Assembly (NCBI GenBank): GCA_938023075.1 | Contig: CALHDG010000090.1 | Span: 1 to 50,616 of the forward strand | Direction of reading: 5' to 3' | From: an uncultured Chitinophagales bacterium | GTDB lineage: Bacteria; Bacteroidota; Bacteroidia; Chitinophagales; JAHDHT01 | Length of the DNA: 50,616 nt | Part shown: piece by piece, positions 2,758-50,616 of the stretch | How the letters are laid out: the number at the start of each line of letters is the position of its first letter | Position numbering within the stretch: position 1 is the stretch's first letter | Position numbers and translations under genes: made by a program | The notes under the pieces: generated by a model | Database searches by the model: none | Told to the model about the DNA's origin: nothing | Seen by the model: the letters and a program-made list of their open reading frames with translations, nothing else

Positions 2758-2983
2758 ATGATAAATCTTCAAGCAGAAAAACTTCGGCTTACTGAGTGGT
2801 TGGTGCAATTGCAAGATATATCGGTTATCCAAACAGATTAAAGCTTTGAAAGAGGAAGAAGCTGAGATAACACCATTAACGGTAGAAGAACTCCACCAAC
2901 GTGCGTTGGATGCTGAGCGTGATATTGCAGAAGGGAATGTAACTCCAATACGAGATATGATGAAAGAAAATTGGAAGGTGTGA
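2758..2983 (+). pseudogene. Antitoxin of TA module 3, frameshifted
   Basis: From ATG 2758 the product begins MINLQAEKLRLTEWLVQLQD and stops at a TAA near 2839. Shifting one base at the CCAAACAG run restores QIKALKEEEAEITPLTVEE and a typical antitoxin tail ending ENWKV at TGA 2981-2983. The start (short helix, EWL, QLQD) and the C-terminal toxin-binding region (LHQRALDAERDIAEGN) match a common Bacteroidota antitoxin type. An extra A in a short A-run is the simplest cause. The stop codon overlaps the GTG of the toxin. Confidence 0.75.
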
Positions 2984-3233
2984 ATATTGTTATAACGGCA
3001 AATGCAAAGAGGCGTTTAAGGCAAATCTTCAATTATTATTGTGACAAAGACCTACCAGCAGTAGCTTTACGGGTCAGAACTTCTATAGAAAACAGGATTT
3101 TATATTTAGAGAAATTACCAAGCTTGGGCACAAGCATAAAATCATACAAGTGAACCTGTTCACTTATTGTAGTAAAGTGGCAATGCTTTTGTTGACACAA
3201 TGGAACAGCAATTGTTTTACTACCGAAACTTAA
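2980..3233 (+). pseudogene. RelE/ParE toxin of TA module 3, frameshifted near its 3' end
   Basis: GTG 2980 overlaps the antitoxin stop by four bases and gives NIVITANAKRRLRQIFNYY, a classic ParE/RelE N-terminus, then NRILYLEKLPSLG. The frame ends at TGA 3151. In another frame the sequence continues as KIIQVNLFTYCSKVAMLLLT then QWNSN, which lines up with the usual 'LLxLWDxRQ' ending. A frameshift around 3134 is therefore likely, and the catalytic C-terminus is also degraded. The 3' third (3134-3231) recurs at 47454-47551 in inverted orientation. Confidence 0.7.
3134..3231 (+). repeat. 98-bp inverted long-range repeat, copy 1
   Basis: This segment equals the reverse complement of 47454-47551 with 8 mismatches in 98 positions and no gaps (about 92% identity, counted by eye). 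It corresponds to the toxin 3' end plus the block TACTACCGAAACTT at 3218-3231. Confidence 0.9.
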
Positions 3234-3304
3234 GTTAATAAAGCCATGCTGGTTGAAAATTATTTCTTCATTTTTGCGATGGTTGTTAAAGCGGAAGAGC
3301 GCAC

Positions 3305-15656: not shown

Positions 15657-15682
15657 CTCAATTCTTGATTTTAGTATTTTTC

Positions 15683-15699
15683 GACAAGTTTATCTAAAC
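15683..15699 (-). repeat. Solo copy of the element-tail motif (GTTTAGATAAACTTGTC)
   Basis: The reverse complement of this site equals the 3' end of the MITE-like unit at 50329-50345, and the following bases (ACAAAGTAGTTTACAC) also match the inner part. It lies 27 bp after the RDD stop. It may be the left end of a unit whose core is copy B, split by the hairpin repeat at 15880-15922. Confidence 0.6.
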
Positions 15700-15879
15700 A
15701 ACAAAGTAGTTTACACTTAATTCAAATTTTAAATAAGAAGAGGCTATTGAACCCCCCAGAAATTCGCAATACCAACTGGCGTCATCGCAGAAAATGTGGA
15801 GAGTAACGGAACATTTATCAGCGATCTCACCTAAGGTTTCCCCCTAAATTCAAGGTTTAAGAGGGTGTTTTTAGGAGAG

Positions 15880-15922
15880 ATGCCGGATAATCTACTCCGC
15901 GAGCTCCGCAGATTTCCGGCAT
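15880..15922. repeat. GC-rich hairpin repeat in the RDD-pyrG gap
   Basis: ATGCCGGA-T-AATCT pairs with AGATT-T-CCGGCAT around CTCCGCGAGCTCCGC. It sits in a 517-bp gap between convergent genes that otherwise holds only the solo tail motif, element copy B and AT-rich sequence. It looks like a palindromic intergenic repeat rather than a terminator, since no T-run follows. Confidence 0.6.
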
Positions 15923-16043
15923 GACGTTTGTTTTACTTACTTTAATCGAGCTACCTTTTTAACTTGTCTATTTTTCTTAGGTTTATTATGGTTATTAACT
16001 GATTCAAATTTACAGAATATAAAAAAGGGTAATGAATAAAACT

Positions 16044-16158
16044 GAAGTTAAAAGTTTAGCCCCGATGGGAGCGGTATCCTTTCTCAATCTTGCAAGGTTG
16101 AGAAAGATTTAGCGGACAGCGGGTAGCCCCTTTCCAAATCTGATTGATGTCTCGCTTC
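16044..16158 (+). repeat. Structured intergenic element, copy B of 7
   Basis: The core 16057-16123 is TAGCCCCGATGGGAGCGG, an inner stem CTTTCTCAA / TTGAGAAAG with a short loop, then AGCGGACAGCGGG. Flanks are GAAG at 16044 and CTCGCTTC-TAAAAAAA ending at 16158. This copy has the shortest and most perfect inner hairpin, and its stem is unrelated in sequence to the others. It ends 15 bp before the pyrG stop on the opposite strand. Confidence 0.85.
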
Positions 16159-18602: not shown

Positions 18603-18681
18603 GGAATGCGCAGAAAATAAATTTATTTTTTTCTCATTCATAAACAAAATAGTAGTTAACACTTTTGCCTTAATTTTTTTT

Positions 18682-18815
18682 GAAGCGAAACCAAATATCA
18701 TTATAATAACACCCGTCCCGCTTTCCGCTCAAATGCAATTGCTATGCTTCAAAATCTGCGCTGCAAAATTGCATAACCGCTGCAATCGGGGCTAGTTTAA
18801 AAACTTCGGTGCTTC
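18682..18815 (-). repeat. Structured intergenic element, copy C of 7
   Basis: Read on the minus strand, GAAGCACCGAAG leads to the core 18715-18794: TAGCCCCGATTGCAGCGG, stem ATGCAATT / AATTGCAT, TTGAGCGGAAAGCGGGAC. It ends with TTTCGCTTC-A-run after 24 nt. It fills most of the gap between two convergent genes (18603-18895). Degenerate versions of the outer end motif flank it (near 18640 and 18860). Confidence 0.85.
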
Positions 18816-18895
18816 GTACAAAAATAAAAAAACCGGCACTCGAAACCAGAAAAGCATCAAGCACTTTGATAAACTTGTTGATAATAGTTTAAAAA

Positions 18896-31790: not shown

Positions 31791-31913
31791 GATCAACAAC
31801 TAAAAAACACCCGTCCCGCTTTCCACTCAAATGCTATTTGCTTGACTGCATAATCCGTGCTGCAAAATAGCATAACCGTTTCAATCGGGGCTAGTTTGCC
31901 AACTGTAAACTTC
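31791..31913 (-). repeat. Structured intergenic element, copy D of 7
   Basis: On the minus strand: GAAG, core 31813-31893 with TAGCCCCGATTGAAACGG, stem ATGCTATTTTGC / GCAAATAGCAT, TTGAGTGGAAAGCGGGAC, then TTCGCTTC after 24 nt. It is the copy with most drift in the AGCGG blocks (ACGG and AGTGG), yet its stem pairs. Its tail ends 15 bp from the ctaA stop on the opposite strand. Confidence 0.85.
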
Positions 31914-35210: not shown

Positions 35211-35219
35211 TACTCAGCT

Positions 35220-35267
35220 CATCCTCGTTTGCAACGAGGATGCCCGAGAAGTGCGTTTGTAACGCAC
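35220..35267. repeat. Two perfect tandem hairpins after the MBL gene
   Basis: CATCCTCGTT-TGC-AACGAGGATG (35220-35242) is a perfect 10-bp stem with a 3-nt loop. Eight bases later GTGCGTT-TGT-AACGCAC (35251-35267) is a perfect 7-bp stem, followed by six A. On the minus strand the second would have a T-run in front rather than after. They may terminate the MBL transcript, but the paired design looks like a dispersed repeat. Confidence 0.65.
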
Positions 35268-35285
35268 AAAAAATAGCCGGCTAAC

Positions 35286-35419
35286 GAAGCAGCGAACTGA
35301 CCAATCTAGCCCCGATTGCAGCGGTTATGCTGCCTGAAGTGTAAGATTTTGAAGCGTTGGCGCAGCATTTGAGCGGAAAGCGGGACCTAAGTTATTTAAA
35401 CACCACAAAGTTTCGCTTC
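35286..35419 (+). repeat. Structured intergenic element, copy E of 7
   Basis: GAAGC at 35286, core 35307-35386 (TAGCCCCGATTGCAGCGG, stem ATGCTGC / GCAGCAT, TTGAGCGGAAAGCGGGAC), then TTTCGCTTC after 24 nt, ending at 35419. The sequence continues with AGTGCCAACTATTTT and GTTTAGATAAAC (35457-35468), the outer end motif shared with the unit at 50099-50345. Confidence 0.88.
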
Positions 35420-35529
35420 AATAAAAAATGAAAAAGAAAGTGCCAACTATTTTATAGTTTAGATAAACATGTCAAATTTTAATTGGAAAAATTTTGCTAG
35501 CAAAATTTTGGTCGCAAAAATTGCGACCT

Positions 35530-36950: not shown

Positions 36951-37083
36951 GAAGCGAAACGACTTACTTCGATTTAAGGCGGGTCCCGCTTTCCGCTCAA
37001 ATGCTATTGCTCAGCTGCATATGCTGAGCTGCAAAATAGCATAACCGCTGCAATCGGGGCTATTTCAATAACTGCAAAGCTCG
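36951..37083 (-). repeat. Structured intergenic element, copy F of 7, in the ubiE leader
   Basis: On the minus strand: core 36983-37062 with TAGCCCCGATTGCAGCGG, stem ATGCTATT / AATAGCAT and an extra inner stem GCTCAGC / GCTGAGC, then TTGAGCGGAAAGCGGGAC and TTTCGCTTC after 23 nt. It is the only copy clearly in sense orientation just ahead of a start codon (ubiE, 18 bp). The upstream flank is degraded (GAGC in place of GAAGC). Confidence 0.85.
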
Positions 37084-47306: not shown

Positions 47307-47453
47307 TTTATGTTACTAGAAACCCAATAAATCATCAATAGTATTAGTATTGCAAGATCGACGAAAGCAATACATTTTATCTTTATTATTTTGTTTTAAA
47401 ACGTATAAAAACTTTGCAACGTAAGGGTAAAGATGAAAGCCAATTATTTACTG

Positions 47454-47551
47454 AAGTTCCGGTAGTAAAATAATTGCTGTTCCATTGTGTCAACAAAAGC
47501 ACGGGCACTTTACTACAACAAGTAAACAGGTTCACTTGCATGATTTTATGC
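47454..47551 (-). pseudogene. RelE/ParE-type toxin 3' fragment (inverted copy of 3134-3231)
   Basis: On the minus strand it reads KIMQVNLFTCCSKVPVLLLT then QWNSNYFTTGT, the same toxin C-terminal fragment as in module 3, with 8 differences in 98 positions. The reading frame stays open past the repeat. The N-terminal part of the toxin is missing or unrecognisable, so this is debris. The rest of the 783-bp gap 47307-48090 carries the two remnants described next and AT-rich sequence. Confidence 0.75.
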
Positions 47552-47653
47552 TTTATATTTTGAATTAAGTTGGCTTAACCTTATTGAGTACTTCAATTTC
47601 CATAAATAATTTATAATTAAGTTATTATGAAATAAATACTACTACCGAAACTT
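47454..47653. repeat. 200-bp segment with 14-bp inverted ends
   Basis: The left end AAGTTCCGGTAGTA and the reverse complement of the right end (TACTACCGAAACTT, 47640-47653) differ at one position of 14. The right-end sequence also closes the copy at 3218-3231 and is followed by AAGTTA at both places. It could be a small non-autonomous element that captured toxin sequence, or recombination debris. No clear target duplication is seen. Confidence 0.5.
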
Positions 47654-50006: not shown

Positions 50007-50098
50007 TTAATCAATTTTGCCAAATTGGAAGGCTTCTCGAAAAAAATGTTGAACAAATTGCTACTGTTTTTGTGGTTTGAATAAACTTACCTAATTTC

Positions 50099-50345
50099 GA
50101 CAAGTTTTTCAAAGTAGTTGATACTTTCTTATTTTAGATGGTCTCTGTTTTTTCTTTCTACGAAGAACCGAAGTTTTTAAACTAGCCCCGATTGCAGCGG
50201 TTATGCTGCCTGAAGCGTTGGATTTTGCAGCGTTGGCGCAGCATTTGAGCGGAAAGCGGGACAAGTGTTATTATAAAACATTATAGTTTCGCTTCAAAAA
50301 ATATCAAAAAAGCATCAACTGCTTTTTGGTTTAGATAAACTTGTC
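50099..50345 (+). mobile_element. MITE-like unit containing structured element copy G
   Basis: The left end GACAAGTTTTTCAAAGTAG TTGATACTTT (50099-50127) and the right end (reverse complement of GCATCAACTGCTTTT ... GTTTAGATAAACTTGTC, to 50345) are imperfect inverted repeats of about 30 bp. Between them, copy G spans 50162-50295: GAAG, core 50183-50262 (TAGCCCCGATTGCAGCGG, stem ATGCTGC / GCAGCAT, TTGAGCGGAAAGCGGGAC) and TTTCGCTTC after 24 nt. CTAATTT occurs on both sides (50091-50097 and 50346-50352) as a possible target duplication. No ORF. Confidence 0.7.
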
Positions 50346-50616
50346 CTAATTTTAAACCAAAATAAATTAGATTTGATGAAAAAGGTAGGATTTGTTTGTT
50401 GCCTGTTTAACTTAGGAACGATGAAAAATAAATGTTCAAATTTTAGCAAAGAGAATTTTTGATATACAAGTTAAGAAACGCAGGCTTAGTGGTGCTAAGC
50501 CGAGTATTTTTAATGAAGTAGATCGGAAAATCTCAAAGATAAAAATGAACAGTTATTTTTGAATTATTCCTTATCCAGCTGATACTATTAGCAGTTTGGC
50601 AAATTAAATCTGGTAT
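50346..50616. other. Unassigned 3' end of the window
   Basis: No supported gene. A plus-strand frame around 50440-50561 reads ILAKRIFDIQVKKRRLSGAK then PSIFNEVDRKISK before a stop, with a protein-like composition but no start and no recognised family. It could be a remnant of a mobile-element gene. Confidence 0.3.

Follow-up and report, generated by a model that had tools for sequence, protein, structure and literature searches.

The DNA analysed, here called the window, is a stretch of 50,616 nucleotides from an uncultured Chitinophagales bacterium (contig CALHDG010000090.1). A unit of 247 bp, termed copy G in the first-pass annotation, lies on its forward strand at positions 50099 to 50345, as delimited by the sequence itself, BLAST and an alignment of its copies. 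The unit starts with GACAAGTTT exactly at 50099 and finishes with AAACTTGTC exactly at 50345, which bears out the imperfect inverted repeats of about 30 bp described for it earlier. Both terminal inverted repeats begin with GACAAGTTTATC, and the arms are asymmetric. The short left arm of about 29 bp (50099-50127, forward strand) contains the inner motif TTGATACTTT, while the long right arm of about 37 bp (50309-50345, reverse strand) reads inward GACAAGTTTATCTAAAC and holds its inner motif about 9 bp deeper. On either side lie CTAATTTC (50091-50098) and CTAATTTT (50346-50353), which flank comparison identifies as the two copies of a target duplication matching in 7 of 8 positions. The unit is short, codes no ORF of 90 or more amino acids and lacks transposase coding. 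In its interior (50180-50267, forward strand; L001 1582-1669) cmscan detected a core resembling the Flavo-1 RNA (RF01705) with 38.3 bits.

Ends, target duplications and empty sites

A BLAST search of the 247-bp unit against its own genome (6.12 Mb in 288 contigs) listed 40 matches, mostly full-length and with 80-95% identity. In an alignment, 37 units match nearly end to end, and similarity drops at the proposed ends. The genome-wide search for the end sequence suggested in the first-pass annotation was carried out with the 15-base pattern GACAAGTTTATCWAA. It returned 231 ends (118+113) with at most one mismatch versus 9 (3+6) for the reversed control. The host genome carries roughly a hundred such units, a number derived from pattern searches and samples that fall short of a complete annotation.

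For the target duplication we compared the left with the right flank, length by length, in 36 copies with the same interior as copy G (type A), which were picked by BLAST independently of any duplication; flanks swapped between copies served as control. In the 8-bp register a mean of 6.39 of 8 positions matched, versus 3.21 with swapped flanks. Perfect 8-bp duplications were present in 12 of the 36 copies and in none of the controls, and 21 of 36 had at most one mismatch (control 1.1%). In the registers of 5, 6, 7, 9 and 10 bp the match stayed near the control. The duplication is therefore 8 bp long, and the 7-bp duplication CTAATTT proposed earlier, ruled out by the missing signal in that register, corresponds to the seven matching bases of the eight at copy G. 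The targets are AT-rich.

Empty sites were sought by joining the two flanks of a unit, with one duplication removed, and matching them to the same genome with self-matches excluded. This revealed paralogous empty sites for six units (L059, which is of type B, see below, and L071, L032, L025, L029 and L036). Those of L059 and L071 are gapless across the junction and contain the target once. The empty site of L032 shows that its target was the end of another type A unit, i.e. a nested insertion, and those of L025, L029 and L036 have diverged further. Another dispersed repeat, GAAGGGAGAGATCTTA...CATTTCATTCGAAATGACAGAATTT, noted at L059, L007, L196 and L094, served as an insertion target. Thirty-nine relatives gave no match to the whole unit; just one of them, 83% complete, belongs to the same family.

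The first-pass annotation had counted complete units without inverted ends or target duplications, or orthologous loci in relatives that show the element and no empty sites, as evidence against a transposon; complete units elsewhere in the genome carry both ends and duplications, and the empty sites exist as paralogs. With terminal inverted repeats, a duplication of constant length, many dispersed copies and paralogous empty sites, copy G (50099-50345) is a MITE, a non-autonomous DNA transposon, in complete form.

Interior types and the Flavo-1 core

Since 2010 Flavo-1 has been listed as a probable RNA whose function is unknown (Weinberg et al. 2010, PMC2864571). The core of copy G stays below the Rfam gathering cut-off (38.3 versus 42 bits, E 1.5e-5 in 7 kb), and with a relaxed threshold cmscan found RF01705 in all six framed copies searched (34.8-38.6 bits, E about 1e-5 to 1e-4). 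Other copies between such ends exceed the cut-off, at C237:1832-1920 (51.2 bits), C58:2362-2451 (44.6), C167:1934-2020 (44.0) and C69:3120-3204 (42.1). The framed cores share with Flavo-1 (PMC2864571) the outer helices and the conserved internal loops AGCCCCGAU..AGCGG and AGCGGA.AGCGGG; they differ in a longer, exchangeable apical hairpin, GGUUAUGC..GCAUUUGAGC, and in lying within a transposon frame. The structured element of the first-pass annotation is a divergent form of the Flavo-1 RNA (RF01705).

Folded alone, the core of copy G is not clearly better than shuffled sequences (z -1.30), so that the case for a structure rests on covariation. All 86 distinct cores can form an apical stem of at least 5 bp, versus a mean of 31 and a maximum of 44 after shuffling. 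The first five bases of the hairpin occur in seven main forms (GCCAT, GCTGC, GCTAT, GCAAT, GCCTT, GCTGT and GCCGT), with a matching opposite arm in every case. In the pairs L010/L030, L011/L020 and L013/L031 frames of 93-95% identity enclose entirely different hairpins, which is best read as a swap of this segment among copies via the conserved flanking sequence.

Besides copy G, the window contains a complete unit with the common ends and a different interior (type B, 286 bp, 15683-15968, reverse strand), recognised by its end match and by a perfect 8-bp duplication TATTTTTC at 15675-15682 and 15969-15976. What had been taken for a solo end at 15683-15699 is really the right end of this unit, and the solo-end reading was dropped. 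About 85 bp from it lies a canonical Flavo-1 RNA outside any MITE (16054-16130, forward strand, 61.3 bits). The unit called copy C (type A, 18641-18879, reverse strand) encloses a Flavo-1-like core. Of the degraded ends ascribed to it, the right one is indeed lost, but the left one, AACAAGTTTATC, is nearly intact and has only its first base changed. Copy E (35213-35473, forward strand) represents type E, with a different 5' half, a Flavo-1-like core and no left end; it keeps its right end, as noted before, but this end (GTTTAGATAAACATGTC, one mismatch) extends from 35457 to 35473 and not merely to 35468. Two further cores of the framed subtype, at 31808-31896 and 36978-37065 (both reverse strand), have no detectable ends. 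Other repeats of the window are a 58-bp direct pair (1040-1097 and 1831-1888, 84%) and a 110-bp inverted pair (3132-3241 and 47444-47553, 91%), the latter 44 kb apart.

Elsewhere in the host genome, type B units are about 290 bp long, with the common ends and without Flavo-1, and type C units (about 276 bp) enclose a GGTCGCAAAAATTGCGACC-like hairpin between these ends. Type E, with its other 5' half, measures 307 bp. Type D is type A with a 226-bp insert, which breaks the Flavo-1 core at GATT^GCAGCGG (L066, L067, L083, L088, L089 and L098); units interrupted in this way have multiplied in turn. Nested in the type D unit of L083 (about 2850-3080; host contig C106) is a palindromic element, GGCTACCCGTCTAA...TTAGACGGGTAGCC, with a 9-bp duplication GACACTTAG, another candidate MITE family.

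Genome-wide, 143 of 150 scored candidates were Flavo-1 hits. About 34 of these are canonical (75-80 nt, 53-66 bits), the remainder mostly belonging to the 85-90 nt subtype present in the frame. None of 19 canonical loci checked lies between transposon ends. Of 20 subtype loci selected purely on their Rfam score, 12 lack recognisable ends and the other 8 have one or both, this sample being the one free of the bias that affects framed-to-free proportions elsewhere, as most loci were fetched for having ends. Because the canonical copies and about half of the subtype are unframed, the transposon is one vehicle of the motif and not the sole one. For the framed copies, the ends, duplications and empty sites therefore indicate that the core travelled as cargo of a non-autonomous transposon, as first proposed, albeit not as its only route.

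Related units in other genomes and the transposase search

A single scan of genome contigs showed the long-arm pattern at 54 loci in six assemblies, all of them MAGs labelled Saprospiraceae or Bacteroidetes. Single pattern hits in G106, G061 and G043 were dropped for want of a convincing inverted partner, and viral contigs, plasmids and phages gave no real match to the ends. Complete units in six Saprospiraceae-type MAGs show the same arm asymmetry, with the inner motif at about +19 and about +28, and are likewise flanked by 8-bp duplications. Their interiors consist of ACCACATAGG or GGATTCACGG palindromes, GTTTACTAAAC hairpins or the Acido-Lenti-1 RNA (RF01687); Flavo-1 hits were absent from these six MAGs. 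In JALZWC01 an inverted pair of Acido-Lenti-1 copies (57.1 and 47.3 bits; L153 2041-2303) lies between both ends, and in CALFWI01 one copy (49.8 bits; L130 near 3488) lies by the right end. Acido-Lenti-1 is another RNA family in another host, showing that the frame carries other Rfam motifs as well.

The first-pass annotation had also suggested looking for a transposase with the same terminal repeats. None was found among the five families searched (IS256, ISL3, DDE_Tnp_1, IS1595 and DDE_Tnp_1_3), and neither the sampled loci of the host genome nor the six other genomes yielded an autonomous element of these families with these ends. IS256 Transposase_mut (PF00872) had no match in the host genome or in the six others, DDE_Tnp_1_3 (PF13612) gave no hits, and the hits to PF01610, PF01609 and PF12762 were without these ends. 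The sole ISL3 copy (host C144:39682-40389, L161) has its own ends, AGGTTCTACAAGAATTTGTGTGAATAGAG, and was ruled out as a partner. A DDE_Tnp_1 element in L241 adjoins a degenerate end and has its own inverted repeat. Among pairs of terminal inverted repeats more than 800 bp apart in the fetched loci, the one candidate (L218, 1776 bp) has neither a transposase-like ORF by inspection nor a matching duplication, and no ORF lies close to the end in the longer interior shared by L108 and L123. The assembly is fragmented and may lack a multi-copy autonomous element. By established transposon biology, such ends, together with the constant duplication and the empty sites, point to a DDE-type transposase that moves the units in trans.

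Origin and spread of the framed RNA motif

We consider it very probable that a MITE moved in trans captured Flavo-1, multiplied, and exchanges hairpins among its copies. A trans-acting transposase, presumably of the DDE type, would recognise bipartite ends, i.e. the terminal GACAAGTTTATC and the inner TTGAYACTTT at unequal spacings in the two arms, and would make an 8-bp staggered cut in AT-rich targets. In this lineage an extended Flavo-1 element may have been caught between such ends, the ends being the putative recipient, and the captured unit would then have multiplied to roughly a hundred copies. Inserted copies may swap their apical hairpin with each other or with free Flavo-1, probably by gene conversion via the conserved surrounding sequences.

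The most serious alternative is that Flavo-1 is itself mobile and jumped into existing MITEs, which were then copied with Flavo-1 inside. The numerous free Flavo-1 copies, the same ends around Flavo-1-free interiors (types B and C) and the nesting of other repeats in the units (the type D insert and the element in L083 with its 9-bp duplication) are in line with this. Such mobility, however, would account for the first framed copy and not for the spread, since the duplications of the framed copies sit at the MITE ends, and we regard this course of events as unlikely, if worth keeping in mind. Near-identical frames with different hairpins do suggest recombination among copies, and homologous recombination or gene conversion among scattered copies might account for most of the spread, with no transposition involved. 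Recombination between homologous sites makes neither new sites with 8-bp duplications nor paralogous empty sites with a single target, however; spread by this process alone is thereby largely refuted and very improbable. The units are also short, palindromic, intergenic and present in very high copy number, as are REP/REPIN-type elements moved by RAYT or another IS200-like transposase. Insertion by IS200 or RAYT enzymes leaves no target duplication. The plain 8-bp duplication and the true inverted repeats at the ends are unlike the products of these enzymes, and the duplication refutes a REP/REPIN origin for the framed units, which we judge hardly conceivable.

The framed RNA might also be a cis-acting regulatory or terminator element under host selection, with the MITE as its delivery vehicle. 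Consistent with this are the compensatory hairpin variation in 86 of 86 cores, although folding of the DNA strand would predict it just as well, and unit positions often soon after stop codons. For the 30 units whose ORFs on both sides were read, the setting is convergent in 10, tandem in 15 and divergent in 5. The units between tandem ORFs show no orientation preference (6 sense, 9 antisense). This agrees with a transcriptome study of Flavobacterium psychrophilum, where Flavo-1 is distributed without strand or transcript logic, its hits having no strand preference and many of them lying outside transcribed regions (PMC9723704). The gene context fits insertion tolerated downstream of genes and lends no support to a cis-regulatory role; selection of this kind appears rather improbable, and any effect on the host would be conjectural.

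The reading of copy G as a MITE with captured RNA cargo places it in a kind of element already known, since MITEs acting as small-RNA sources occur in Coxiella (PMC5896051) and Porphyromonas has Bacteroidota MITEs whose interiors differ between similar ends (PMC4596501). In QMITE1 and QMITE2 of Coxiella burnetii the MITE sequence itself became the sRNA, whereas here a known, independently dispersed RNA motif lies inside the MITE, and the cargo differs between species. BrickBuilt of Porphyromonas gingivalis has ends matching IS5-family elements (GAGACC...), short variable duplications and minisatellite cargo, in contrast to the ends GACAAGTTTATC, the constant 8-bp duplication and the Rfam RNA motif found here. 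The portions of the literature consulted nowhere link Flavo-1 to a transposon, and within them this particular family, the RNA it carries and the swapping of cargo appear to be undescribed.

Copy G shows one way in which RNA-like repeats spread through genomes. With Flavo-1 located in a transposon whose duplications and empty sites can be measured, its scattered occurrence has a testable explanation, at least in one lineage. That Acido-Lenti-1 and other palindromes lie between the same ends suggests a route of wider use for the spread of structured intergenic repeats. Tentatively, and with more doubt than confidence, one might see in the frame common to Saprospiraceae-type bacteria a chassis that takes up structured palindromic repeats time and again, swaps them and spreads them; Flavo-1 and Acido-Lenti-1, which Rfam lists as small RNAs, would on this view be transposon cargo modules, at least in part, and not conserved RNA genes.
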